Positions 20,516 through 38,992 of a stretch of DNA of 64,000 bases are shown here, in pieces. This stretch comes from Porodaedalea pini (taxonomy: Eukaryota > Basidiomycota > Agaricomycetes > Hymenochaetales > Hymenochaetaceae): NCBI GenBank assembly GCA_002794775.1, contig NBAY01000010.1:620001-684000 (forward strand). Direction: 5' to 3'. A program made the translations under genes and the position numbers. The notes beneath the pieces were generated by a model. The model was not told the DNA's origin. It was given only the letters and a program-made list of their open reading frames with translations, and made no database searches. Position 1 is the first letter of the stretch. Each line of letters starts with the position of its first letter.

Positions 20516-20835
20516 GGATCTGGACGTTTATCAGCGCTGGTTTCAAACGGACTGGATATGTTCTATCCACCTTTTTGGACACCTTGTTGAGAGTGGTTTA
20601 TATGCCTAGTGCGACCCAAATTGAATAGTTTCGAGTGCGGTCTAAGCGAAAAAATCTAAAAAGGCCCAATATGCGTGTTCTACAAACAAGATTAGGTACA
20701 CGGAATTGTATGACGGACATCCAATAATGCAAAGGGGTATATCTATCAAAGCTAATGAATATGTAGGGAAAAAAGAGCTTGGAAGCAAAACATGTCCGAA
20801 TCTCAAAACAAACGAGCAAACAAACAAACTCAGTC
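20516..20835. other. Intergenic, 3' ends
   Basis: 320 bp between the peptidase stop and the DHHC pseudogene. From about 20690 it matches 34520 onward, so the segmental duplication begins here. Confidence 0.6.
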
Positions 20836-22362
20836 TCAGTCCATTTTGTCCTCACTCGCAAGCTCCGCAGCCAACCGCGCCAGCATTCCCTGCGCACGCG
20901 GGTTGCGCGGGAAACTTTTTCCGTCTCCCGTCCCTCCTCCACCGCACAGAAGCCGGTACGCCCACCCGCGCCATCCGCGATTGCCCACGCCGACGAGCTG
21001 CGTCCAGTTCGCGCGTAGCCCTACATCGTACAGCCGGATGCGTCCGTGCGCGTGTCGCACATGCCGTCGCTGCGCCGCGCTGAGCTGGTACTCGTGCGTG
21101 GTGGGCATCGCGCTTGGCCCTGGTCCGTTAGATCTGTTGCGCGACAGGCTCTGCGTGCCGAGGAAGGGAACGGGGACGCCAATGCGTGAAGGGTCTGGGG
21201 GCGTGTTCGGGTGGGAGATTGGATGGAGAGGCATGGGGCGTGGAGGGAAGGGCGAGTTTAGCGAGACGCTACCCGCAGTTGGCGGCGGTGCTGTCACTCC
21301 GGCGAAGGCAGGAACAGAAGGCGGAGTTGGAAGGTAACGCGGCGAGAGGAGAAAGAAACATTTTCTATTGTAGTCTGTTTTGTAGAAATGAGTCAATGAA
21401 CTTGACCGAGCTACATATATAACTCACGAGGCGGGATAAACATGCCCGAGCAGGAACGAGCCGACAGCAAAAGAGAAGATTGCACCGTAGATTGGGAGGA
21501 AGAGGGTATGAAGGGCTGTTCGCTCGTTCTGCGCATATTATGTTACTGTAAGTTCCCGAGTCTTGTATGATTATCAATGTGAAACGCACCACGAGAAACG
21601 GATTTTAGAAAGCGACGTAGACGATTCGACCGGCGAGGAGAGTTACACAAAGAAGTGAAGGAAGGTTGTATAAGTCCAGTAGCCCTTGAAGACGCGTTAA
21701 AAGATAAATGAAGAGAATGCTAGCGTTAAGAAACGTACTACAGAGCAAGTCATGGGCAATGATGATTTGCACAGTAACGATGCCAGCAGCACAAATGGCG
21801 AAAGGCACGAAGCTATCGTAAGAATACAACGCCCGCAAGCGGAAAAAGATGTGTCCAGTACTATTTTTCCGGCGCATTGAAAACATAATCATCCACCGAG
21901 TCGGTCTTCGTTTTTGTCTTCGCTTTCTTCTGGTGCATAGGATGTGAGGCGGCATCTTCCCCAATTGAGCACGGATCCTACACGACGCATGCTAGTGAGC
22001 ACAAGACAAGGAAGGTGAAGAGATATATAGCAAGTAGGTGTACTGAGAAGAGAAACGGAGAGTCGTATATGTTCAGGTAATATGAGACAAGCATGACTAG
22101 AATGGAGTATTGCGGCGCGAACATGAGAACAAGCAGCACTACAGTTTGCAGTATACGAGTAATTGGCAAATAAGTTCATGAATATTTCTCAAAGAATATA
22201 CAAAGCAAAGGCAGGTAGCTCCTTTTGTGATGGACCATCGTCCTGGTCATCGTTGGCATCTAACAGTGTAACGCAGAGTCATCGTCGTCGCTGGTTGAAG
22301 AGAACTTCAGAAGTCTTTCGTAAGGAGCACAAGCGTTCGTTTCCAAGGTTAAACAACGGCAT
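20836..22362 (-). pseudogene. DHHC palmitoyltransferase pseudogene (copy A)
   Basis: The C-terminal part (to 20836) is still open and nearly identical to the intact gene at 34647-36313. The N-terminal membrane segments (about 21978-22169) are readable. The cysteine-rich zinc region at about 21830-21890 has lost bases and contains TAG; the catalytic block reads as NHHCP followed by a stop; and the TTxE motif is destroyed. No active enzyme can be made. Confidence 0.9.
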
Positions 22363-22589
22363 CGTAGAACCTCGTCGTCGGTCGAGCTTAGTGTTGAGGC
22401 ATGTATGTAGAAGATGGCTAGTCCGCCGTCGTCGCGGACAACTGCGTCTCGCGCCAATCGAATCGCCGGAGATAGTCACGTGCCGGCCGCGGTCCATGCC
22501 TTTCGCCTTCCTCTAATATCAATTACAAGTATACAAAAGCTCGTCAATATTATGCGCGTCTCCGTTCTCCATCTGCAACAGCGAGCGCG

Positions 22590-22727
22590 ATGCTCCGTCG
22601 GACCTATGTGTGCTCTCATGAGTCGCGAGCTTGCTCAAACTCCAGATCCTTCTCACACACACAGAGCAAGCAGGTCGCTGTGCTACTCAACGATGGGAGA
22701 CTCCTCGGAAAGGATGAAGAGCAAGGT
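22590..22727 (+). pseudogene. 5' fragment of D-lactate dehydrogenase (copy A)
   Basis: Matches the first codons of the intact gene at 36573, starting MLRRT. The similarity breaks off after about 45 codons; the sequence that follows is unrelated. No FAD-binding domain is present. Confidence 0.8.
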
Positions 22728-23111
22728 ACTTTTCTATCTTGCTTTGGTCCTAGTCTGCGACTTCCAGACTCCTTTGAAGTTTCCGAACCGTGACTTCACA
22801 CTGTTCTGGCAGCCATATCGAAAGCATTTAGTATGCACCGGCAAGCGGGTAGTCGATCCACGTCGCAGTTCCAGCAGCATCAAACAGCTCAATTGATCGC
22901 TCCTTGCTAATAGTGTACTCGTCTCTACCTGAGATAAATAGAAGAGATAATGGTTCAACTTATGGACACACAAGTCCATTTCAATAATATTATTCATGAC
23001 ACACTGTTGGCAATAAATAGTAATACGCAGTCTTTGAGTCCTCTGGAAGCACTGGACTGACGATGTTCCGTGTCCAGCCTGACAAAGTCAGGATGTAGCC
23101 TGGGTCTATTC
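22728..23111. other. No gene seen
   Basis: About 380 bp of AT-rich sequence between the duplication end and the coiled-coil frame. No recognisable feature. Confidence 0.4.
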
Positions 23112-23820: not shown

Positions 23821-24506
23821 GTGGTCTGTAGGATGTATTGCATCCTCACATTCATTGCTTTGCTCATTACAATTTTGAATTAATGGAAGTTATATTTTGT
23901 GCTAGAGTCGAAAAAAAGTCATAATGCATGATAGATTAACTCATAAATTCCATAATATTAATGCGGCATCACTTTCTGCCTTATCCCAATGCAATCAAAA
24001 TTATACTTTGCACTGATATGGGTTTGGTACAGTACACCTTATAATGCAATATGTATTTTGCATTATATTAGCCTGAAATAACAACCCGACCAATGGATGT
24101 CTCAATATGGTTTGGTACGATACATTTCGTAATGCATCCAAAAGCTCATGCAATATTAATGGCAGGAAGGTCTCATATCTTGACGTTCTTTCGAAAAGCC
24201 AGGGAAATCAAAGGTACTATAAATGCTTGAGAATACTCAGGTCCATCCCCCCTGCTTACTGTTCGTTTGATCAACAAATCTGAGACTAATGAGAGCATAC
24301 TAGAATGCGTCAGTGATCACATTGAGTCTCACTGCTTCATCACAACAATTTGCACAGAATCAATTTCTGCTTATGGGGATAATAAATGCCATGTGCTTGA
24401 TAAAATTTGAATATTTGCTGTTATATTTGCATATCTGGTAATATACGTCAATATGTGTTCATGCAAAACTTTGTGATGACTTGCACTAGTACTAGACACC
24501 GGTCTT
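23821..24506. other. AT-rich spacer
   Basis: No open frame of interest. A plus-strand TATAAATG occurs near 24218 without a following gene. Confidence 0.4.
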
Positions 24507-24508
24507 TA

Positions 24509-26510
24509 CAGCCATTTTCATAAGTCCTGCGACACGTGCATTTCACATGAAATGAGCCACGTCTGAGCCAAAACATCGAAAAATAGAATAAATGTTGATT
24601 TTCTCTGTAAATTCTGCGCAGTACCTGCTCATTAAGTACTCAAAAAATAGGCATGGTTCTCAGGAGCAGAAATATGTAAAATAGGGAGCAATACATTGAC
24701 TGTGTAGGTGGGTGGAGATCAAACAAGTGCAGCCAGTCTGTTCTCTCATACATTTCCACTGAGATTCAAAAATTATGGCTCCCCTACATCTACCTATAAA
24801 ATTCTTTCCCATGACTGTAAATTAAGTATATGACTATACCAACAGCTCCTGCAAGTCTGAAGCCAATCCATGCAGTATTCATGGTGCAGCAGCAAGGTTT
24901 GTGTTCCACTTTGAGCTCTTTCCACCTTCCTCTTCTCACAACAGGTCTTGCAGCACGGGCGAGAAGACCGCTAAGATTATGATTCTTTTTGTGTAATTAT
25001 CGGACACATAAAAGCCATCTTCCCTGCAAGTTTCCTGTCCATTCGCTTTGTGCTTCGACTGCTACACTCAAATTTCTGTGCATACTACCAACACCTGTGA
25101 GCACGTGAGCACGTGTTAGCCAAGCCACCACCATGCAAACATGAAAGCCAACACTCTACTTCCTCCTCCTCTCAGGTCATTCCATGATGGTTTCAGGCAA
25201 GGCACTCTCAGACGATGCAAGACACATCATATTCAGACTGTATCAGTCACGACTCTTCACCATGCATGACCTGGCCAGGGTAATAGATATCCATCAAGCA
25301 ACAATCCACCAAACTGTTGCTCAACATGAGCACATGGGGCATTTATGACAGGAGGGCATGAGGACTGGAAGACCAAGGTTGCTTGATTATGCAGATACAC
25401 AGGTGAGTGCATTTTTTGAATTGTAATGACTCGCTGCAGCTAACTGAACTATAGTATCTCTTGAGCACAATAGAGCATCGCAAGGACCAGTACTTAGATG
25501 AGGTGAGGGAGGAGCTGGAAAGGGTAACAGGCAAGAAGGTTTTGGACACTACAGTATGGAGGTCTCTGCGCCGGGCTGGGTTCACTCTGAAGACAGTGCG
25601 GTGATGCTTATGGCTTCGCATCAGCAAACTTACTCTGCTCAAGATATTGAAAAGGGCACTTGAACGCAGCGAGTCCACTCAGCTCTGGTACACATTGAGA
25701 ATGGGATCTCAATATGAGGCAGAACAGCTCGTCTTTGTCAACAAGAGCGCATGCGACCGACATACCTTCTTGAGGAAGAAAGCATGGGCTTTGCAGGGTT
25801 ATCAGGCATGTCAGAAAGTGATCTTTACATGGGGAAAAAGGTGCGATGCTTACCTTTATGACTGCAGATCTGACTGCTTGCCTCTTCTAGGTATTCGATC
25901 TTGCCCGCAATCACTTTGACTGGCATGCTTGACTGTACAATACTGGAAGGATCCTTCAATGCCACCTCCTTCTCTGCATTTATCAGGGATCTCTTGGACC
26001 ACATGCAACCTTGGCCGGCCCAAAACTCTGTCGTGGTGATGGACAACTGCACAATCCACAAGTCACTGGAAATCCGCGAACTCATTGAGTCAAGGTCCAT
26101 CTATTTTGACCTGTCATGCTGCGACACAGGGCTCTTACTGATCTGACTCCACACAGGGGCATGAAGCTGGAATTTCTCCCCGCGTATTCTCCGGACTTCA
26201 ACCCGATCGAGCTGGCATTCTCTCTGCTGAAATCTCAACTTCGTCGGGTCAAATTCAGTGATGAGGAAACGGACGCTTCGGTATTTGCAAAGCTTTACGG
26301 TGAAACCATGTCTATCAGTGCTGCGGACTGTCGCACTTTCTATCATCATTGCAGTTATCTCTGTTAGTGTCGGGTTTCTTCATCGAGTGGATACAGGCTT
26401 CCTTGTCACTGTCTCAACTGGTCCAACAATGTAATATATTCTGTCTATATGATGTACACATAACTACTGTTCCTTGATGTGAGAAACATCCTCCTGCGCA
26501 TATCGAACAG
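24509..26510 (+). repeat. Left arm (terminal inverted repeat, about 2.0 kb)
   Basis: Reverse complement of the right arm. All encoded peptides I compared in the two arms are identical. Confidence 0.9.
25184..26367 (+). pseudogene. Tc1/mariner-type transposase, left copy, inactivated
   Basis: Five exons (25184-25402, 25455-25600, 25655-25840, 25891-26094, 26157-26367) with GT-AG introns. The N-terminal helix-turn-helix region is followed by RTGRPRLL; then comes the DDE core. Second Asp: VVMDNCTIHK. Third acidic residue: SPDFNPIEL. The first catalytic Asp is lost: FVNKS stands where the family has FVDES, that is, two G-to-A changes. A TGA at about 25347 (GHL-stop-QEG) also interrupts exon 1. 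Family and exon calls rest on the motifs seen; the inactive state follows from the stop and the D-to-N change. Confidence 0.88.
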
Positions 26511-26550
26511 TGTGAGTGAGTAATGCAAGACTTGTCTCGACCTCTGCATC
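26464..26550 (-). pseudogene. 3' remnant of gene Y
   Basis: The minus-strand frame ends VRYAQEDVSHIKEQ then stop, the same C-terminus as intact gene Y at 32392. Identity is high to about 26510, then weakens and ends. Confidence 0.8.
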
Positions 26551-26554
26551 CTTC

Positions 26555-26645
26555 GCTCTTGGACCATATGCAGTCTTGCCGTGCCCAAAGGCTATCGTAG
26601 CGATGGACAATGAGTTGAGCGGTGTGGAACATCGTGCACTCCATC
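26555..26645 (+). pseudogene. Transposase fragment
   Basis: The DNA resembles transposase exon 4 around LLDHMQ...VVMDN (26005-26050) but is diverged and broken. It suggests that an older transposase copy once lay next to the truncated Y. Confidence 0.6.
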
Positions 26646-26911
26646 ATCATGGTCACTTTCTAGCAGTAAACTTCAATCATTGAATAAATAAAATGTACAT
26701 TCTACACAACTAATCATACAAAACCCTGGTATTTCTGTATGAAAGAAGACTTAGTAGGAGGAATACAAAAGGAAATAGTAGACAAAAGGATTTGAGGCTA
26801 TGCGAGAGCATGTGTCTGATTGTTCAGACCGATTTGATCCACGCTGGAGTCCCTCCTCATTACCGCCGCTCCAGTGACCACCTTGGACGCCTCAAGGTCA
26901 TCATCGTGATG

Positions 26912-29900
26912 TCAGAGCAACTCTTCCGGAACTCTCTCAGTGATGTCCACGTCTACCCCCTCTTCTGGAGTAGCTGTATTCCCATCTCTGGTCATCTCTA
27001 TCCTCTCTTCTGAAGTGGTGGTTGTGTCTCCATTTCCGGTTGCTTCTACCCTCTCTTCTACCCTCTCTTCTGTAGTTCTTGTAAGTCTGATCCCAGTCAA
27101 TAGGGGGAGGTGGCCAGGATGAGGACGAAGTGAGGAGGGACTGGGATGTGTTTCCATGAGCTGTGCCTCCCCTTCCGGCATTAAACGAATTAGAGGGGCC
27201 TGGCTGGAGCAAGGATGAAGTGGGGGGGGATGGCGGGGACGTGTCTCCATGAGCCATGCCTCCCCTTGAATTAGAGGGGCCTTTGTCATGCGGGTAATCT
27301 GATCAATTCTTTTTTTTCTCTGGCCTCATCATAAGGGCATGATTGTCAGCGGGACGCTTGCAAAATGAGTTCGCAGATGATGACGGATAGGATTGCAATG
27401 CACTGGATTCCCGTTCACTGGATCACACCGCATTGTCCACATGTGGAAGGGGGAGCCCTACACTTATAGGTCCATTGGGGATACTGTTATGCATGTTGAT
27501 TCCCTGCTGGACGGCCAAAATCACTCTGAAATGTGGAGCACACTCCTTAAACTTCCCCTGCGAAACGCCATGCTCCTCCAATGCATTTATTGCAGCTTCG
27601 TAAGATTCCACAGGCTCAGACATATCATGGGCACCTCCATGTAATGCAATTATGAGTGAGTCATAGGCATCTTCCCGCAATAGAATGTCAGCAATTCCAT
27701 CCTCCAAGAGCTTGAGAGCTGCTGATAGCGCAGACAGGTCCTTGATGAAAGGCATATATGCCCTAAGATTCCTGTAATTCCTGGATAGCAAGTGCTTCAC
27801 ACTGCCCACTGGTGCACTGGCCTCTGCGAGAAGTACTCGGTCATCCAGTTTTTTGTATGACAAGCTTGCTTCATTACAAGGACCCACAAGAAGACCGGCA
27901 TATTCTCTCATTCAACTATCGGCCGACTTAAAATCATATTTTTCTGTTCCCTCCAGTTGCGGTATTGGAGAAGTGCTAAACAAGATATCCACATCCTCTT
28001 TTCGTTGCCTGAAGGTGAGACAAAGTATGTATGTGATTCGGTTGACAGAATCACGTGTAAGTCTCCCTTTCAAATCTAATTGCATGCCCAATACAGTATT
28101 GCAAGGGGTAGAGTCCATGTCAGAGAGTTGGGAAGAGTGTGTGGAGTAATGAGCAGAGCCTCTTTTAGGCCAACTCTTTTTATACTTTTGCTGATACTGA
28201 TTGAAAATCCACATCACTTCGTGGCCTGCAAAACTCTCGATTTTGCTCATAGTCTTGTTAGGACTCCAAGTGCGCATTCTCCCTTCCCCTTTCCTTCATC
28301 ATCTTCATCATCTCCAACATCCCCTTCCTCCCTCTCCCCACTGGACTCTGTCTGTTGTCGCTCCCTTCGCTGATGTCACCCACTTATCGATCGCGTGACC
28401 CTTGCATGTGGTCGCGGGCGACGTCGTCTGCTCATTAGTAAGAACATTCCACGATGTTCCATCACATTCCATTTCCCAGGAATGTCGTCCTCTTTATAGT
28501 AGTTAGGTCTCACAAGCACTGAGTATATAGGTAGCTCGTTCGCCTGTATTATCCCTCACCTCAGCATTCTTGGAATCCACTGCTGCTTACTCTTGATAAT
28601 GTTGTCCACGATGCTCATGCGTTTGACTCCTCCCCTCTTCGCTCTTGTGTCTGTGGGCATGGTGGTTGCCTGAACGGCACCCGCTATCGTTCTCCCATGT
28701 TGCTCGACCTCTGCCCGCGTTGTATGCAGGTATGGTGGTTAAGTGATTGTTGAGTACGTGGTCGTACTCTAACAAGTCTTGGGTTTCTCCTGTAGCTCCG
28801 TGGATATCTTGGATGCCTGCAGAAGTCTGCTCCTAATAACTTCTGCCAGAACATAAGCATCCACATTGTTGTATTGGGCCTGGCCGCAGAAAGCTTTGCA
28901 ATCTACATATCCTGCCTGTTCCACCCTCGTGGCAAAGGAAAGTGAAGCATTCATCTCCCAGAAACTCGGCTGTTCATGAGCACGCATAAAAGCAACTACC
29001 AAGTTGTGCAAGTTTTGGACTACCTTCTCTCTGTCGTAGTTCGGATAGAGTTGCCCAAGATTGAATGCGTAGTCTTTCATTATACTGGCGATTGATTTGA
29101 ATGCCTCAAAGGGCACACCAGGGCCTGCCTTTGGGGTTTGAGCGCACTGCACAAGGTCCCTCAAGACCCGTTTGGATGACCATGGGTCATACACTGTGTT
29201 TTGCTGAATACAAGGGTGGTCGATCGGGATGAAATAATGAATCCTTTTAGGCTTGCAGACATCCTCATTATTTGAAGTGTTTCCTGAGCAGTAGCAAATC
29301 TGCAGGACACGCTCTGCAACACTGAATCCCGTAAGGAGTATAATCTTTCCTTCCTCGATTAATTTTCGAAGGTGCAACTTATCCGCCACTTCAGGCTCCT
29401 AAATCAGAATGTGAGAATCAAGTAGAGTGATACTAGAGAAGGAGCTTTACCCCAAGAATAGCATCCGTATGAAGACTAAGTACACCACGTATTTCATCTT
29501 CTACTCGATGTGCATTGATTTTGCTTTGTTCACTTTTCTCCTCCAACATATTAACCCGATCCGTGACAATAAGAAGGCCAACCTGGGCCTCCGAAGAACG
29601 TGCCTCATCAGCTGCAGCAACATCTTGAACAGTTCGAAGCATGGTGGCCAAGCTTGTGTGGATTTGTGACTCAAGTTAGGTTATCCTAGCCAAGAGAAAA
29701 TCATAATTTTTTCTGGCGTGAAGACTTTTTTTACACCGCTTTGACTTTTCCTCAATCTGACCATGCTTAGCAACAGCTGCCTCCGCAATTACCACAACTT
29801 TGTCATAGGACTGTGATGCCTTCGCTTGAACGAGCTGCTTCTTTAGCGCTGCACTTTTGGACGCTGAAAAATAGTGCACAGATGCATCAGGACGATCCCG

Positions 29901-30211
29901 CAGCAATTGTATAAATAGTACTTATGGCTACTACAACTAGATTCCTCCCCTGAACTCTCTCAAGCCACTTCCTTTCCCTTTCCTTTTGAATCATTCTCTG
30001 CAGGTCCTTCAGAAGAAACTTCATCTGACGTCACGTCAGAAGGGCCCATGGAACTTACCAGGGAAGACATATGCTTACCAGATAGCACCTCTTGCAACTG
30101 CTCAGAGTCTTCCATGGTGTCTTCATGATCATGAACTTCACTGGGTGCTACACAAAATGCCTGTTTGTAAGCCACCAAAGACTTAGAACGTGGTGATCTA
30201 TTCCGTACCAT
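26912..30211 (-). pseudogene. Cargo gene X: large protein of unknown function
   Basis: Minus-strand exons form one long gene once the solo LTR is removed. 30211-29960: basic then acidic N-terminus. 29906-29433: a Lys/Glu/Gln-rich, probably coiled-coil segment ending at a GT donor after ILG. From 29404: a globular-looking part (KLHLRKLIEEGK...). After LTR excision the frame runs KPKT-MSKIES straight into 28250-27423. A probable intron then leads to a low-complexity acidic tail ending near 26912. Lesions: TAA near 29674, TGA at 27912-27914, and the LTR. I recognise no family; about 900 residues in all. It sits divergently from Y. Confidence 0.55.
28256..28774 (+). mobile_element. Solo LTR inside gene X
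   Basis: 519 bp starting TGTTAGGACT and ending CTCTAACA, with a perfect 5-bp target duplication AGTCT at 28251-28255 and 28775-28779. It contains TATA-like motifs near 28523. It is not the same family as the chromoviruses at 2-16 kb. Removing it with one duplication restores the reading frame of gene X. Confidence 0.88.
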
Positions 30212-30588
30212 TAACCATGACTATGTCACTGGAAGGATCCATAGGATGCCATCCAGCTTGTCCTTCCATAGCAATGGGTACTTATAGGGGTGAGCGATGA
30301 GGTGGGAGAGCAAGACTGATGGGGATGGGAGAAGAAGGACAAGAGATAAAGATGAGACCGGTGCATTTTGATGCCCTGAACCCTCCTTTTGTATTCTTGC
30401 CACATTGGGATAGCCAGTTCCCTACCTTCAACCTTGGTCCACAATGGCTCAGTCGGCATGAAAGCAATAGTCATGAAGGAGGTAGAGGTCGCCAACATCT
30501 TTCGGGAGGCTTAGGTATCAAAATATTCGGTAAGCAAAAATATCCGATGCTCTAAGCGAAATTGGAATGCATTTCTTTTCCTGACCCC
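30212..30588. promoter_or_regulatory. Divergent promoter region between X and Y
   Basis: 377 bp separate the two starts, which point away from each other. No clear TATA box; a weak CCTATAAG lies at about 30275-30285 on the minus strand. Confidence 0.4.
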
Positions 30589-32392
30589 ATGATGCCGCCT
30601 CAACATGTCAGAAAGAAGTCCAAAAAACTCAAAGACGGTGAAGAACTAGCTGTGGAATTAGCTGTGCAGATGAAGAAATGCCCTGTTGGTCGCCCCAGGA
30701 AAAATGAAGTCCCCAATCAGGTCCCCGAAACTCCCACAAAAAAGCAGTCGAAATCAAGTGGGAAGAAATATGCTACAACAGCAAAGCCGACCCGCTGAAC
30801 TGTGAGTTGTGAAATTTGATGCAAATGCTCTCTCTGACTGGTTTTCATGCCCATAGCCACACAAGAAGGGCAATGACAAGGATACAGTTGAACAGGAGCA
30901 TTCGCCTGAAGATCAGGGGGATATATCCATTGCGGACGTCGTTCAGGCTTCAGGACTTGGCTTGAATGACACTATGAATGAAACACAGGGTTTTGACGAT
31001 GACAGATCGGCCTTCGATGAAATTCCTGACTCCCCTGACAAGCCTGATGAGCGTTCTTTCCATCTTGATGATGGTACAAAACCTCCATTCATTGTTGCCT
31101 AAGGCTGTGGCTAAGAAAAGTATAGCTGGCGAGTACATGGACTGGAATACTCCCTCCCTTGGACATGCAAAAGCTTATGGATGGATCACATCAACACCAG
31201 CTGCAGAGAAAAAGCCCAAACTGGAAGTCATGGTAAAAATTCATGACAGTACTGGCGTGCGAGACATGAAGATCAACTCCAAGATGTCACTGGCTGATTT
31301 GATCAATGAAGCGGTTTCAATCACCCGGGGCCATTCTACATTTGACCAACTTGGTTACACAGCTTGCTGGTCTGTGAAGTCTGGGACAAAGCTCGAACCA
31401 GAATATTTGGATACACAAGACCAGTTGGACGCGCTGTTCAAACAAGTTCACAGGCATCAAGCAGCTGAAAAGAAGAAGAAACGAGGTAATGAAAACCCTG
31501 GAATTGTCATTCGGAATCTCAGTAATCAGGTTCATCTATAGTATTTGATGTATAAAGTGGTTCCTGACATGCAGTGAAGAATACATGCAGGAACAATGGG
31601 AACAGCAATAAACAGCAAAGTGTGACTAGAACGAATGTGACTCCTTCAGGGGTCACCGGTGCTAAGGAAGCTTATGATGCTGCACTCGAACAGATTATGG
31701 CGCAAATTGCAGCAGCATTCAAATGCAATAAACACGACAGCAGGCTCTGTGGTAAAATAAGAGGGTCAAAAGACCATCTTATGTATTCCAACAAACATCT
31801 TGTTGAACATGCAAAGCTGATTGTGAGTCCATTGACAAAGCGCAATCTCACCAGACTAAAAGCATACTTTGTCCAGTATAAGAATACTCCCAGAGTCAAA
31901 GTGAACGAAGTACTAGGGCAACTGAAAGTATTGGACAAGCAGTGGAAAGCAGCTGACAATGCCAGCACAGGAACTGGCTCTGACATAGCAACTGGGCCTA
32001 CAACATCCCTCCCCAACAGTGCTCCTGTGACAGCCAGAACAGTGGCAACTGTAGTGCCAATGCAACCTTTCAACCAGCTGGTCATTGCCCAGCACTACGA
32101 AATGCATAACTGGGTGGTAGCTGAGTGCAGGCCACGCAATTACCCTTCTGTTTGGAATTGGATTGAATCATTGCACGATGACATGGAGAGAGGCCGCGAT
32201 GACTACCAATACAGGTCTCTGCTACCTGTTTTCGAGGCCAATGATGTTAAGTGCTTGGATGACTTGGCTTACTTAGAATTTGGAAGGCTCAAGAAGATGG
32301 TTATTGATGAACAAGTGGAGGCAAGCATTGGGTTACTCAATCATATCGTTCGATATGCACAGGAGGATGTTTCTCACATCAAGGAACAGTAG
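30589..32392 (+). pseudogene. Cargo gene Y: AT-hook and SAM-like protein of unknown family
   Basis: Starts MMPPQH; an AT-hook-like PVGRPRKN lies at about residue 38. Exon 1 ends near 30802 after an in-frame TGA; the next exon (from 30856) is acidic. A change of frame near 31090 is needed to enter the segment AVAKKS...KKKKR (31100-31484), which looks like a small ubiquitin-like or PB1-like fold (inference). A GT-AG intron (31485-31574) leads into 31575-32392, whose C-terminus (RSLLPVFEANDVKCLDDLAYL) resembles a SAM domain. Two lesions suggest decay. A second, truncated copy lies at 26464. Function unknown; DNA binding and protein contacts are plausible. Confidence 0.5.
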
Positions 32393-34347
32393 TTATGTGT
32401 ACATCATATAGACAGAATATATTACATTGTTGGACCAGTTGAGACAGTGACAAGGAAGCCTGTATCCACTCGATGAAGAAACCCGACACTAACAGAGATA
32501 ACTGCAATGATGATAGAAAGTGCGACAGTCCGCAGCACTGATAGACATGGTTTCACCGTAAAGCTTTGCAAATACCGAAGCGTCCGTTTCCTCATCACTG
32601 AATTTGACCCGACGAAGTTGAGATTTCAGCAGAGAGAATGCCAGCTCGATCGGGTTGAAGTCCGGAGAATACGCGGGGAGAAATTCCAGCTTCATGCCCC
32701 TGTGTGGAGTCAGATCAGTAAGAGCCCTGTGTCGCAGCATGACAGGTCAAAATAGATGGACCTTGACTCAATGAGTTCGCGGATTTCCAGTGACTTGTGG
32801 ATTGTGCAGTTGTCCATCACCACGACAGAGTTTTGGGCCGGCCAAGGTTGCATGTGGTCCAAGAGATCCCTGATAAATGCAGAGAAGGAGGTGGCATTGA
32901 AGGATCCTTCCAGTATTGTACAGTCAAGCATGCCAGTCAAAGTGATTGCGGGCAAGATCGAATACCTAGAAGAGGCAAGCAGTCAGATCTGCAGTCATAA
33001 AGGTAAGCATCGCACCTTTTTCCCCATGTAAAGATCACTTTCTGACATGCCTGATAACCCTGCAAAGCCCATGCTTTCTTCCTCAAGAAGGTATGTCGGT
33101 CGCATGCGCTCTTGTTGACAAAGACGAGCTGTTCTGCCTCATATTGAGATCCCATTCTCAATGTGTACCAGAGCTGAGTGGACTCGCTGCGTTCAAGTGC
33201 CCTTTTCAATATCTTGAGCAGAGTAAGTTTGCTGATGCGAAGCCATAAGCATCACCGCACTGTCTTCAGAGTGAACCCAGCCCGGCGCAGAGACCTCCAT
33301 ACTGTAGTGTCCAAAACCTTCTTGCCTGTTACCCTTTCCAGCTCCTCCCTCACCTCATCTAAGTACTGGTCCTTGCGATGCTCTATTGTGCTCAAGAGAT
33401 ACTATAGTTCAGTTAGCTGCAGCGAGTCATTACAATTCAAAAAATGCACTCACCTGTGTATCTGCATAATCAAGCAACCTTGGTCTTCCAGTCCTCATGC
33501 CCTCCTGTCATAAATGCCCCATGTGCTCATGTTGAGCAACAGTTTGGTGGATTGTTGCTTGATGGATATCTATTACCCTGGCCAGGTCATGCATGGTGAA
33601 GAGTCGTGACTGATACAGTCTGAATATGATGTGTCTTGCATCGTCTGAGAGTGCCTTGCCTGAAACCATCATGGAATGACCTGAGAGGAGGAGGAAGTAG
33701 AGTGTTGGCTTTCATGTTTGCATGGTGGTGGCTTGGCTAACACGTGCTCACGTGCTCACAGGTGTTGGTAGTATGCACAGAAATTTGAGTGTAGCAGTCG
33801 AAGCACAAAGCGAATGGACAGGAAACTTGCAGGGAAGATGGCTTTTATGTGTCCGATAATTACACAAAAAGAATCATAATCTTAGCGGTCTTCTCGCCCG
33901 TGCTGCAAGACCTGTTGTGAGAAGAGGAAGGTGGAAAGAGCTCAAAGTGGAACACAAACCTTGCTGCTGCACCATGAATACTGCATGGATTGGCTTCAGA
34001 CTTGCAGGAGCTGTTGGTATAGTCATATACTTAATTTACAGTCATGGGAAAGAATTTTATAGGTAGATGTAGGGGAGCCATAATTTTTGAATCTCAGTGG
34101 AAATGTATGAGAGAACAGACTGGCTGCACTTGTTTGATCTCCACCCACCTACACAGTCAATGTATTGCTCCCTATTTTACATATTTCTGCTCCTGAGAAC
34201 CATGCCTATTTTTTGAGTACTTAATGAGCAGGTACTGCGCAGAATTTACAGAGAAAATCAACATTTATTCTATTTTTCGATGTTTTGGCTCAGACGTGGC
34301 TCATTTCATGTGAAATGCACGTGTCGCAGGACTTATGAAAATGGCTG
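32347..34347 (-). repeat. Right arm (terminal inverted repeat, about 2.0 kb)
   Basis: Mirror of 24509-26510. The innermost part overlaps the 3' end of gene Y. Confidence 0.9.
32489..33672 (-). pseudogene. Tc1/mariner-type transposase, right copy, inactivated
   Basis: Exact mirror of the left copy with the same five exons and the same two defects (the TGA in exon 1 and Asn for the first catalytic Asp). Shared lesions mean that the arms were copied from each other, or kept equal by gene conversion, after the transposase had died. Confidence 0.88.
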
Positions 34348-34646
34348 TAACAAAATTCTACAAAGGAGCGCATACAAAGTTTAGCTCAGATGGTTTGTAT
34401 ATGATACGAACGTCTGCGTTCTTGTTCACCCAACATGCAAAGAAAGGTCAAGTAAATTCATAGAAATAAATCCAATATGGATCACGGCTATCATCCAAAC
34501 GCATAACATATATTTGCTGCAAACGAAATTAGGTGCACGGAAATGTATGACGGATATCCAGTAATGCAAAAGGGTATATATCTATCAAAGCTAATGAATG
34601 CATAAGAAAAAGACGAGCAAACAAACAAACAAACAAACAAACAAAC

Positions 34647-36313
34647 TCAGTCCATTTTGTCCTCACTCGCAAGCTCCGCAGCCAACCGCGCCAGCATTCC
34701 CTGCGCACGCGGGTTGCGCGGGAAGCTTTTTCCGTCTCCCGTCCCTCCTCCACCGCACAGAAGCCGGTACGCCCACCCGCGCCACCCGCGATTGCCCACG
34801 CCGACGAGCTGCGTCCAGTTCGCGCGTAGCCCGACATCGTACAGCCGGATGCGTCCGTGCGCATGTCGCACATGCCGTCGCTGCGCCGCGCTGAGCTGGT
34901 ACTCGTGCGTGGTGGGCATCGCGCTTGGCCCTGGTCCGTTAGATCTGTTGCGCGACAGGCTCTGCGTGCTGAGGAAGGGGAAGGAGGTACTTGAAGGGTT
35001 TGGAGGCGTGTTCGGATGGGAGATTGGATGGAGAGGCACGGGGTGTGGAGGGAAGGGCGAGTTTAGTGAGACGCTACCCGCAGTTGGCGGCGGCGTTGTC
35101 GATTCGGCGAAGGCAGGAGCAGAAGGCGGAGTTGGGAGGTAGCGCAGCAGCAGGAAAGGAGAGATTTTCTCTATTGTGGTCTGGTTTGTCCTGTTCGTAA
35201 AATGAGTCGATGGACTTGATCGAGCTGCAAATATAACTCACGAAGCGAGATAAACATGCCAGAGCAGGAACGAGCCTACGACAAGAGAGAAGACCGCGCC
35301 ATAAATCGAGAGGAACAGGGCATGAAGGGCTGTTCGCTCGTTCTGCGCATATCATGTTAATGGCTCTCCCCGAGTCTTATATGGCTATCAACGTGAAACG
35401 CACCACGAGAAACGGATTTAAGAACGCGACATAGACGATTCGACCGGCGAGAAGGCCAATGTATGTGGCAAGAAGAGTTATACAAAGAAGGAAGTGCAGG
35501 AAGGCTGTATAAGTCCAGTGGCCCTTCAAGTCGTTTTGAGAGATAATTGAAGTGAATGACTGTTGGAGTGACATACTACACATTTCTGAGCAAGCCATGG
35601 GCAATGGTGATCTGTGTAGCAACGATGTCAGTAGCACAAACGGCCAAAGGGAGGAAGGCACGAACCCATCTTAAGAACACAACGTCCACAAGCGGAGCAA
35701 TGATGTGTCCTCTCTGGTTTCGGTGCCCAGCACTTTCTGCACCACTTGTGTGGTGCATTGAAGTCATCGTCAAACACTTCGGGCACGCCTTTCTTCGTCT
35801 TAGGGCTGGGAGTCATGCGAAGAGCATCCATCATATTCGTTTCTTCATTATCATCCTTGTTTTCTTCTGGTGCATTAGGATGTGAGCCAGCATCTTCGCC
35901 GACGCGAATTGCACCTGGGTCGCGCACGACGCATACGAGAAGCGAGCACAAGGCAAGGAAGGTGAAGAGATATATAGCAAATAGGTGCACTGAGAAGAGA
36001 AACGGGGAGTCGTGTATGTTCAAGTAATAGGAGACAAGCATGACTAGAATGGAGTATTGCGGTGCGAACATGAGAACAAGCAGCACTACAGAATGTAGTA
36101 TACGCGCAGTTAGCAAAGAAACTGATGAAAATTTCTCAAAAACATACAAAGCAAAGGAAGGTAGTTCCACCACCGCTTTCTTTTTTGTGGCGGACCATCG
36201 TCCTGGCCATCGTTGATGTCTAATACAGAGTCGTCGTCGTCGCTGGCTGAAGCGAATTCTGGAAGTCTTTCGTAAGGAGCACGAGCGTTCGTTTCCAAGG
36301 TCAACAAAGGCAT
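34647..36313 (-). CDS. DHHC-type protein S-palmitoyltransferase
   Basis: Six exons (36148-36313, 35666-36085, 35577-35611, 35404-35523, 35242-35342, 34647-35190) total 1386 nt, 461 residues. It attaches palmitate to cysteines of membrane proteins. Order: disordered acidic N-terminus, two membrane segments, a CRKC...HHCSACGRC zinc region, the catalytic DHHCPWLAQKC encoded mostly by a 35-nt exon, two more membrane segments (LHFLLCITLLATYIGLLAG; YGAVFSLVVGSFLLW), the family motif TTIE, and a C-terminal NWTQL...GWRGWAYRLL region. The start is the ATG of MPLLTLETN. It is head-to-head with the dehydrogenase gene. A broken duplicate lies at 20836-22362. Confidence 0.93.
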
Positions 36314-36572
36314 CGTGAGGAGACGTCGTTGTTCGAGCTCAGTGTTGAGGCATGTATGTAGAAGATGGCTAGTCCGTCGTCGTCGTCAACTGCGCGCTGT
36401 GCCACGGTCTCGCGCCGATCGAATAGCCGGAGACGGTCACGTTCTCGCGTCCGCGGTCCTTCAGTGAATCACCACGGCTTCGCCTTCCTCTGATCGCACG
36501 TAAATATAGGCTCGTGAGGACGATGCGTGTCTCCGTTCTTTCCGCTGACCATCATCTGCAACGGCGAGCGCG
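36314..36572. promoter_or_regulatory. Shared divergent promoter, DHHC and DLD1
   Basis: 259 bp between the two ATGs. No clear TATA box. The duplicated copy is at 22363-22589. Confidence 0.6.
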
Positions 36573-38992
36573 ATGCTTCGTCGGACGTCTGCGATCTCTC
36601 ATGAATTCCGAGCCTGCTCAAGTTCCAGGTCCGTCTCGCACGCACTCAGAGCAAATATTTCGCGTCGCTACTCCACGACGGGAAGCTCCTCGGAAAGCAC
36701 GAAGAGCAAGCTGCGTTTGTCAGGTCATGCCTTGTCCTTCCTACTAGGCTCTGTCGGAACTGTTACTCTCGGCGGTCTGTCATACTATTTCTTGGGCTCA
36801 AAGTTTAAGACGGACCCGAGAGGCATGAAAGTTAAATTCGGCACGGCATTGGACTTCCAAACAGCTGTTCGCGTTCTGTGCTTGACCTTTCCGGAGGATG
36901 GCAGAGTCACGACCGATCCAGACGATCTCTATGACCATGGTTTCTCCGTGTATGATTACCACCCTGGTGTGTACGCCGCCTTCACTCTTCATCTCATTTT
37001 CTAACTCCCTGGGATATAGGTGCCATACACAGTGTAATAGTCTATCCGGAGTGTACCGAAGATGTCGTCAAAATCGTCAAGATTGCGACAAAGTATAGAA
37101 TGCCGGTTATCCCATACTCTGGAGGCACAAGCCTGGAAGGCCACACCCGAGGTGTATGTAGGCTTGGTTATAACCATCTTTATTTCGTCGAGCTTGACGT
37201 CTCTAGCACAAATATGGCGGCATCTGTGTAGACATGTCTCGTATGGACCGGATAATAAAAATAAACGGTGAGCGACTTCTGATGTTCATCAGTTCGCCCT
37301 TTTATTGAGACTCCGAATGCAGAAGCCGACGGTGACCTAGTTTGCCAGCCGGGAGCACGATGGATGGACATCAATGAAACTCTCAAGGCCAAACGTACGT
37401 ATGTTCTTTTTGAGCCCCATTGTTTACTTGCTAAATTCGGATATCTGGTTAGGCATACCTTTATTTTTCCCTGCAAGCAATCACTCAACTTATTGCTGTC
37501 ATCAGTATTTATACATCTTAATTAGCTCGATCCAGCTCCTGGCGCTACAATCGGCGGAATGATAGCTACAGGTTGTTCAGGAAGTAAGCTACGTTATACG
37601 AAACACGCACGTGGGTATCGATGATTTATATTTTTTGTTTTCCAGCGAATGCTGTTCGTTACGGGACGGCAAAAGCGGAATGGTTCCTCAACCTCGTGCG
37701 AATTGCTTCGTCTCCGACTGCAGTAGATTGTGTTCATATGTTTCGTTTTTAGACTGTAGTGCTTCCCTCAGGAGAAGTTATCAAGACAAGAAGACGGGCT
37801 CGGAAGTCTTCTGCTGGTTTCGACACAACGAAAATCTTCATTGGTGCTGAGGGTACCCTTGGAATCGTAACTGAAGGTGCCTTCCTATACAAGTCCCGCA
37901 CACCTGGAACCTGATTACAGTTTTTCGAACATAGCGACTATCCGACTGGCACCATTACTTCCTACAACCGTGGCTGTCGTGCAGTTCCCTGATGTCCGGA
38001 AAGCAACTGAGGCCGTGCGAGATGTGATGACACAGGGCGTCGGCATCCGTACAATCCTTTTCCCTCTTTGAACCACAACACGCGTCTTGACATCACTTAC
38101 ACAGAATGTGTCGAACTCTGTGACGACGACTTCATGCACGCGACAAACCTATACGGCATGTCCATGCGCAAATGGCCAGAGAAGGACAGCCTATTCTTCA
38201 AATTCCAGGGTCACTCACCCGACGCACTGCGCGAGACGGCGCGCGTCGTCAAGAAGGTCGTGGAGCGGCACGGCGGCACGGGCTTCACGCTTGCGCGGAA
38301 CGAGCGCGAGGCGACAGACCTGTGGACCGATCGGAAAAATGCGCATTATGCAGGATGTGCGCTGGTAGAGGGTGCACGAGGCTGGCCAACTGATGTATGG
38401 TGCGTTCGAGTTCGACTCCCTCCTCCCCCCCTTTTTTTTTCAATGGTTCGTCTATGATTCTGACGTATAACAATAAACATAGCGTCCCAGTCTCACGTCT
38501 TCCCGAACTCGTGTACGAGACAAAGAAGGACTTGAAGGCGTCCGGGCTGGTCTCAACTATCGTCGGGCACGCAGGTGACGGCAACTTCCACGCGCTCATC
38601 CTATTCAAGGATGACGATGAGTTGTCCAAGGTGCGCGAGGCGGTGCATCGCATGGTTGAGCGCGCAATCTCGCTCGACGGGACATGTGAGTCTCGTATAC
38701 AACTCACTTTGTCGTTTAATCGATGAGGTTGACTGGCGCGTAAAGGCACGGGTGAGCACGGCGTCGGGATTGGGAAGAAGGAGTTCCTGTATGAAGAGCT
38801 CGGGGAGGGCACGGTAGAGCTCATGAAGTCGATCAAACGCACACTTGACCCACTGGGCTTATTTAACCCCGGAAAGGTGAGCGTGTATAAATGTATTTAC
38901 GGGTTCACTAGCGGGTGCTGACCGATGCGACGAAAAAATTGCAGTTATACCCAGACAAGCCCACCGAGCACCCTAAGCTGCTTGAGGGGTAA
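36573..38992 (+). CDS. DLD1: D-lactate dehydrogenase (cytochrome c), mitochondrial
   Basis: Thirteen exons total 1704 nt, 567 residues: 36573-36966, 37020-37153, 37207-37267, 37323-37394, 37453-37472, 37526-37583, 37646-37695, 37753-37876, 37935-38048, 38105-38399, 38483-38685, 38746-38876, 38945-38992. It oxidises D-lactate to pyruvate with FAD and passes electrons to cytochrome c. The Arg/Ser-rich start (MLRRTSA) looks like a mitochondrial presequence, followed by a hydrophobic stretch. The PCMH-type FAD-binding region includes [14 protein letters not shown]; the C-terminal oxidase domain includes [12 protein letters not shown] and NPGKLYPD. Intron 5 (37473-37525) uses a GC donor, and exon 5 is only 20 nt. 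Confidence 0.93.
37473..37525 (+). other. GC-AG intron in DLD1
   Basis: The exon ends TTCCCT, the intron begins GCAAGC and ends TTAATTAG; the coding frame of the whole gene closes only with this donor. Confidence 0.8.

Follow-up and report, generated by a model that had tools for sequence, protein, structure and literature searches.

A Tc1/mariner-IS630 transposon of Porodaedalea pini with a transposase gene in each inverted arm and two probable accessory genes

The window analysed here, a stretch of 64,000 nucleotides from the basidiomycete Porodaedalea pini (assembly GCA_002794775.1, contig NBAY01000010.1, positions 620,001 to 684,000 of the forward strand), contains at positions 24509-34347 a palindromic mobile element. 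We consider it likely that this element represents a multi-copy, multi-gene Tc1/mariner-IS630 DNA transposon of about 9.3 kb, in which paired transposase-bearing arms enclose two accessory genes, X and Y, and are equalised by gene conversion. Elements of the Tc1/mariner superfamily usually carry a single gene. Assignment to Tc1/mariner-IS630 rests on the transposase, a DDE_3 protein with aligned D, D, and E residues, on the TA target-site duplication, and on the terminal inverted repeats. The first-pass annotation, made from the sequence alone, had described one TA-flanked unit with mirror arms of about 2 kb, a transposase in each arm, and two long unrecognised genes between them, and this description is confirmed below. 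Its length of 9.84 kb is correct for the window unit, but not as the size of the element: typical copies measure about 9.3 kb, and the window unit is longer because a foreign insert of 519 bp lies inside X. The window copy itself is a dead, decayed member of the family.

The unit at 24509-34347 (coordinates that leave out its TA duplication) reads T-TA-[CAGCC...GGCTG]-TA-A across its flanks and ends. Its inverted arms, 24506-26550 and 32306-34350, are 99% complementary over 2045 nt. A search of the window for the 23-bp tip, TACAGCCATTTTCATAAGTCCTG, with up to three mismatches allowed gives two occurrences, both exact and both outermost, where chance predicts none (100 shuffles). X and Y are situated between the arms with back-to-back starts, X running leftward and Y rightward, and the 3' end of Y lies inside the right arm. 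The features are, by position:

24507-24508, no strand: left TA target-site duplication, seen in the sequence; target T-TA-A
24509-26496, plus strand: left arm, identical to the right arm in the window copy, with weaker mirror similarity onward to 26550
24509-24953, plus strand: outer part of the arm, source of the 839-851-bp palindromic derivatives
25184-26367, plus strand: left transposase gene, exons 25184-25402, 25455-25600, 25655-25840, 25891-26094, and 26157-26367
26464-26550, minus strand: mirror of the 3' end of Y ("second Y"), the last 29 codons of Y, partly within the left arm and partly just beyond its inner end
26556-26610, plus strand: third-transposase relic, part of exon 4
26937-30211, minus strand: gene X, exons 30211-29926, 29863-29451, and 29398-26937; window copy broken by stops and an insert
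28256-28774, no strand: insert in X resembling a solo long terminal repeat (LTR), foreign to the element, with TGTTAG...CTAACA ends and the 5-bp duplication AGTCT
30592-32392, plus strand: gene Y, exons 30592-30801, 30857-31073, 31126-31485, and 31575-32392; stop at codon 69 in the window
32360-34347, minus strand: right arm, with weaker mirror similarity from 32306
32489-33672, minus strand: right transposase gene, exons 33454-33672, 33256-33401, 33016-33201, 32762-32965, and 32489-32699, mirroring the left gene
34348-34349, no strand: right TA target-site duplication, seen in the sequence

Exon models of all genes were derived from reading frames and splice signals and placed on an alignment of 19 copies, which includes the window copy and leaves out copy L025 for its insert. 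The transposase model has five exons and encodes a DD34E protein of 321 residues. Its product in copy L009 matches DDE_3 (PF13358) with an E-value of 8.8e-31 and 107 bits (cut-off 28.6), and its triad consists of D151, D235, and E270, with 34 residues separating the last two. Residues 6-319 of the transposase also align, triad included, with a cyanobacterial IS630 transposase at 32% identity, and the N-terminus has weak similarity, below the curated cut-offs, to HTH_32 (E 3e-6) and HTH_Tnp_Tc3_2 (E 4.7e-5). Both transposase genes of the window are dead, with a stop at codon 55 and the first catalytic D changed to N. Of the 19 aligned copies, 7 have one or both transposase frames open; one of these 7 encodes N in place of the first catalytic D.

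The genome around the window, which was searched for relatives of the window copy, comprises 53.27 Mb in 201 contigs. Searches with the X side, with the Y side, and with the outermost 1 kb of the arm found many places each time, and these counts are lower bounds because 40 candidates were scored per search. The main part of the X protein gave 51 matching rows, which merge into 39 places, and rows for Y were found at corresponding places. About 20 of the 39 X places were examined as DNA, at full or near-full length. Nineteen further copies, chosen partly via their X and Y matches, were fetched, and every one is colinear with the window wherever it matches. Eleven are complete end to end (one with an inner insert of about 400 bp), and L017, L018, L019, L020, L022, L024, L025, and L027 are interrupted or have no arm end in the fetched stretch. 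An X or Y match is present at most 9.2 kb away from each of the 40 long arm matches scored, and for 39 of these the distance does not exceed 3.5 kb. Long arms devoid of X and Y were thus absent among these 40; the fetched copies are no test of this point because X and Y partly guided their choice.

An empty site illustrates how the element inserts. At C12, a copy is nested in a small derivative, with CATTA to its left and TAAGT to its right, and CATTAAGT stands at that site in an uninterrupted derivative and in the window arm alike. Given that the nested copy splits CATTAAGT into CATTA...TAAGT, insertion took place at TTAA with duplication of TA. The base before ACAG is T at all 55 distinct junctions of the loci examined, and this T is preceded by T in 51 and by C in 4. 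Together with the 39 places of X and the order kept in the 19 fetched copies, the empty site supports the earlier proposal that the structure moves as one unit. At C12:416380-433900 (L038, L039), a family unit of 16.6 kb is nested in a small derivative at the inner TTAA of the arm, and this TTAA is also occupied in L027 (C19), L023 (C15), and L024 (C38), so that it may be a preferred insertion site. In L023 and L024 (with L040), tips stand inside or beside an arm, at the arm's own TTAA, with no continuation of the arm on the far side of the inserted unit; perhaps the ends of two units were used together.

The recurrence of the whole unit also bears on two explanations raised in the first-pass annotation. 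According to the first, two inverted and formerly separate transposons came to move jointly as a composite. Such an origin would fit the presence of a transposase in each arm and the remnant of a third one immediately inward of the left arm. However, the only two tips of the window (at up to three mismatches) are the outer ones, and arms and middle recur together as one unit. Since the arms have no inner tips, a composite is not supported and we regard it as highly improbable. According to the second explanation, the palindrome is an artefact of assembly. We found nothing in its favour and give it a negligible chance: the element has many copies on many contigs, each with arm variants of its own, and three of these copies (L011, L016, and L023) carry 13 to 16 left/right differences within arm columns 1-1985. 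An assembly palindrome is therefore rejected.

Arm statistics were obtained from 11 copies, the window included. For 22 of 22 arms, the nearest relative is the partner arm of the same copy, with 5-20 differences against 18-85 to other arms over 2015 columns; arms of different copies differ on average at 54.5 positions (220 pairs). The addition of both arms of L023, for this test alone, gives 24 of 24 arms in 12 of 12 copies, 5-22 against 18-109 differences, and a between-copy mean of 60.4 (264 pairs). As each arm is closest to its own partner although the copies differ, the arms are homogenised in cis, gene conversion being the probable process. A short cluster just past column 1985, present in every one of the 11 copies, holds over half of the left/right differences and shows where homogenisation ends; in the window copy, the arms are identical to about 26496 and the recurring cluster begins at about 26509. 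Within columns 1-1985, four of the 11 copies, among them the window, show no left/right difference at all. Strictly private changes number 62 in both arms and 18 in a single arm, and 93 further left/right differences, recurring cluster included, are at sites that vary in other copies too. Differences between left and right form clusters in two copies, L016 (0 of 10000 draws) and L013 (p=0.009), a pattern that points to conversion tracts. Private changes are rarer in the arms, with 2.8 shared plus 0.4 single changes per kb, than in the middle, with 5.9 per kb and copy; the corresponding values for the window copy are 4.5 plus 0.25 and 19.5. Most private arm changes are C>T or G>A (51 of the 62 in both arms, 13 of the 18 in a single arm), the pattern expected if methylated cytosines have decayed or a related process has acted.

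Homogenisation extends to small palindromic derivatives of the element. The tip, at up to two mismatches, has 447 + 452 = 899 occurrences in the genome and none in the control. Among 100 tip places listed, 40 form 20 pairs spanning 840-854 bp; hundreds of derivatives would be an extrapolation, given that the other 799 of the 899 places are outside this list. The nine derivatives that were fetched measure 839-851 bp, are 90-96% self-complementary, and consist of two copies of the outermost 404-448 bp of the arm, with 90-93% identity to the window arm (9/9). All nine carry the tips and outer arm sequence of the element without room for genes, and thereby stand to it in the relation of miniature inverted-repeat transposable elements (MITEs). 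The two halves are mutually nearest in seven of the nine, and homogenisation thus has no need for X and Y in cis.

Three results weigh against conversion as we read it. Halves are not mutually nearest in the remaining two derivatives; of the five copies tested for clustering of differences, three show none clearly (L010 p=0.33, L011 0.30, L015 0.09); and the scarcity of private changes in the arms is accounted for only in part by the stricter criterion used there and by the window copy having a mosaic middle. The main rival to conversion in place, which we consider rather unlikely, is that a copying step equalises the arms at each transposition, in the manner of LTRs. It would account for the four copies without differences in columns 1-1985, for the rarity of private changes in a single arm (18 against 62), and for the three copies without clear clustering. 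Against it stands the window copy, whose arms are identical and share their dead alleles despite the decay of X and Y and an insert of its own in X. The clustered differences of L016 and L013 likewise disagree with a copying step, and the Tc1/mariner-IS630 superfamily is known for cut-and-paste transposition.

X comprises three exons and is open in 3 of the 19 aligned copies (893, 893, and 908 residues), and its length varies among copies in steps of 45 nt. Y comprises four exons encoding 534 residues, has a length of 1605 nt in 17 of the 19 rows, and is likewise open in three. Neither protein has a Pfam match above cut-off, and the PDB contains no match for Y or for the 479-residue main part of X. 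A tyrosine recombinase domain of Pfam is absent from X, Y, and the transposase. Viral contigs, searched for close relatives only, contain no X or Y match, and no match to either gene was found outside the transposon family among the scored genome candidates. Pfam lines far below cut-off (Cullin_Nedd8, L27, and RMI1_C; on pieces of the proteins, Glyco_transf_15, Peptidase_M7, and DUF6669) were not used. By eye, GRPRK in Y resembles what we take to be an AT-hook, and X has what is presumably a coiled coil and an Arg/Ser-rich tail. The C-terminus of Y had also been read by eye as a sterile alpha motif, a reading that was dropped because neither Pfam (E<=10) nor the PDB returned a match. Structure models of exon 4 of the window Y and of part of X have a mean predicted local distance difference test score (pLDDT) of 41.1 and 41.7, respectively.

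We propose that X and Y are probably accessory transposition proteins encoded by the element, rather than cargo from the host; the word "cargo", used for them in the first-pass annotation, is therefore probably wrong, given that the scored matches to both genes fall only within the family. Selection provides part of the argument. Ratios of nonsynonymous to synonymous substitution rates (dN/dS), calculated against divergent copies that are themselves decayed, which should raise the values, are 0.35-0.45 for the transposase (two comparisons) and 0.46-0.79 for Y (three comparisons). For X, nonsynonymous changes (stops included) relate to synonymous ones as 118:38 among singletons and as 118:76 among variants shared by at least three copies (p=0.004). 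Other results pull in the opposite direction: dN/dS of X is near neutral under the same comparison (0.81-0.90, three comparisons), the contrast between singletons and shared variants is not significant for Y (53:17 versus 61:34, p=0.13) or for the transposase (31:14 versus 39:21, p=0.83), and no copy among the 19 aligned combines open frames for transposase, X, and Y, so that none of them demonstrates autonomy.

The dN/dS of X would also be compatible with capture, that is, with a gene pair trapped once between the arms that has no role in transposition. That neither protein has a known transposition domain in Pfam, and that the small derivatives are mobile although they carry neither X nor Y, would agree with such an origin. 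However, the derivatives could be served in trans, the genome candidates scored gave no X or Y match outside the family, each of the 40 long arm matches scored has an X or Y match nearby, and both genes show some constraint. We therefore view captured cargo as possible, though unlikely, and continue to favour an accessory role for X and Y.

The layout also retains traces of its past. The first-pass annotation had listed remnants of a third transposase and of a second Y. The former is real: the relic of exon 4 in the window copy spans 55 nt at 79% identity (E 7.5e-8), and in copy L012 it reaches a local score of 61 where 100 shuffles give at most 38. The second Y is not a separate remnant; because Y extends into the right arm, the left side bears a mirror of its last codons. 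The relic is oriented as the left transposase and adjoins this mirrored Y tail. Together, these features suggest that an older left end was at some time overwritten by a copy of the right end with its transposase and Y tail. The window copy also seems to be a mosaic, its X part (26700-29700) deriving, to judge from sequence comparison, from a different sublineage than its arms and Y. For two stretches of the X part, the closest of the other copies (L025 in both cases) is 94.6% and 94.1% identical, whereas typical copies share 94.9-98.8% and 94.1-97.7% in these stretches (best four and lowest four rows per region, with L025 included); the arms and Y of the window copy are typical. Two further repeats were noted. 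Stretches related to the solo-LTR-like insert (71-73%) occur in or near other copies (C82, C23) at different positions, and a 2-kb direct repeat flanks the element (window 20680-22733 and 34517-36718, 76-82% identical), its right member beginning about 167 bp from the element end.

In the mechanism that we envisage, the transposase would bind the arm tips and move the unit by cut and paste, and X and Y could contribute as element-encoded accessory proteins, for example as DNA-binding or assembly factors. Arm-to-arm gene conversion would keep the arms identical, and a change in one transposase copy would eventually be copied to, or erased by, the other arm. A bolder version, which we put forward only tentatively and hold to be doubtful, is that the transposase is stored twice with the arms serving as mutual repair templates, and that X and Y form an obligate complex for TTAA sites which would also mobilise hundreds of derivatives. 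Under this version, conversion between the arms might preserve matching genes and ends in a way that recalls the palindromes of Y chromosomes.

Multi-gene, long-armed Tc1/mariner elements are already known from ciliates. While Tc1 elements are typically about 1.3 kb in length with one gene (PMC7325037), Sardine of Paramecium measures about 6.7 kb and has up to four open reading frames (PMC3464196). Sardine and Thon resemble the present element as multi-gene IS630/Tc1 transposons with long terminal inverted repeats, hypothetical open reading frames, and derivatives reduced to solo repeats, but their repeats (425 and about 700 bp) are themselves palindromic, they carry a tyrosine recombinase, and their transposase is of the DD35E type; the parts of that report used here do not mention a transposase inside the repeats (PMC3464196). 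Euplotes Tec and Oxytricha TBE share the DD34E transposase and have three open reading frames (PMC7325037, PMC4724952). Long terminal inverted repeats of about 700 bp (Tec; PMC7325037) and accessory reading frames under purifying selection (TBE; PMC4724952) add to the likeness. They differ in their ciliate hosts, in the short repeats of TBE (about 80 bp), and in the site-specific recombinase of Tec, and the sections of these papers on which we draw contain no mention of a transposase in each repeat (PMC7325037, PMC4724952). Among fungi, TIR_1 of Pleurotus ostreatus is a Tc1-mariner element with a DDE_3 transposase, TA duplication, a 214-nt terminal inverted repeat, and truncated non-autonomous copies; it is 1.6 kb long, and the passages cited mention neither a further gene nor a transposase inside the repeat (PMC4905642). 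Mariner elements with Fanzor1 or with endonuclease/methyltransferase genes likewise combine one or two further genes with a TA duplication, but these genes have known domains, unlike X and Y, and transposase-bearing arms are not mentioned in the corresponding parts of the source (PMC3627910).

What sets the P. pini element apart is one transposase per 2-kb arm, two orphan genes, and the homogenisation of arms within copies. Among the open-access papers that our searches listed, we recognised no description of this layout from fungi, most subscription journals being outside the scope of the search. Should our interpretation be true, the Tc1/mariner superfamily builds complex elements outside ciliates as well, and the dozens of copies in this genome would offer a natural system for measuring conversion between inverted repeats.

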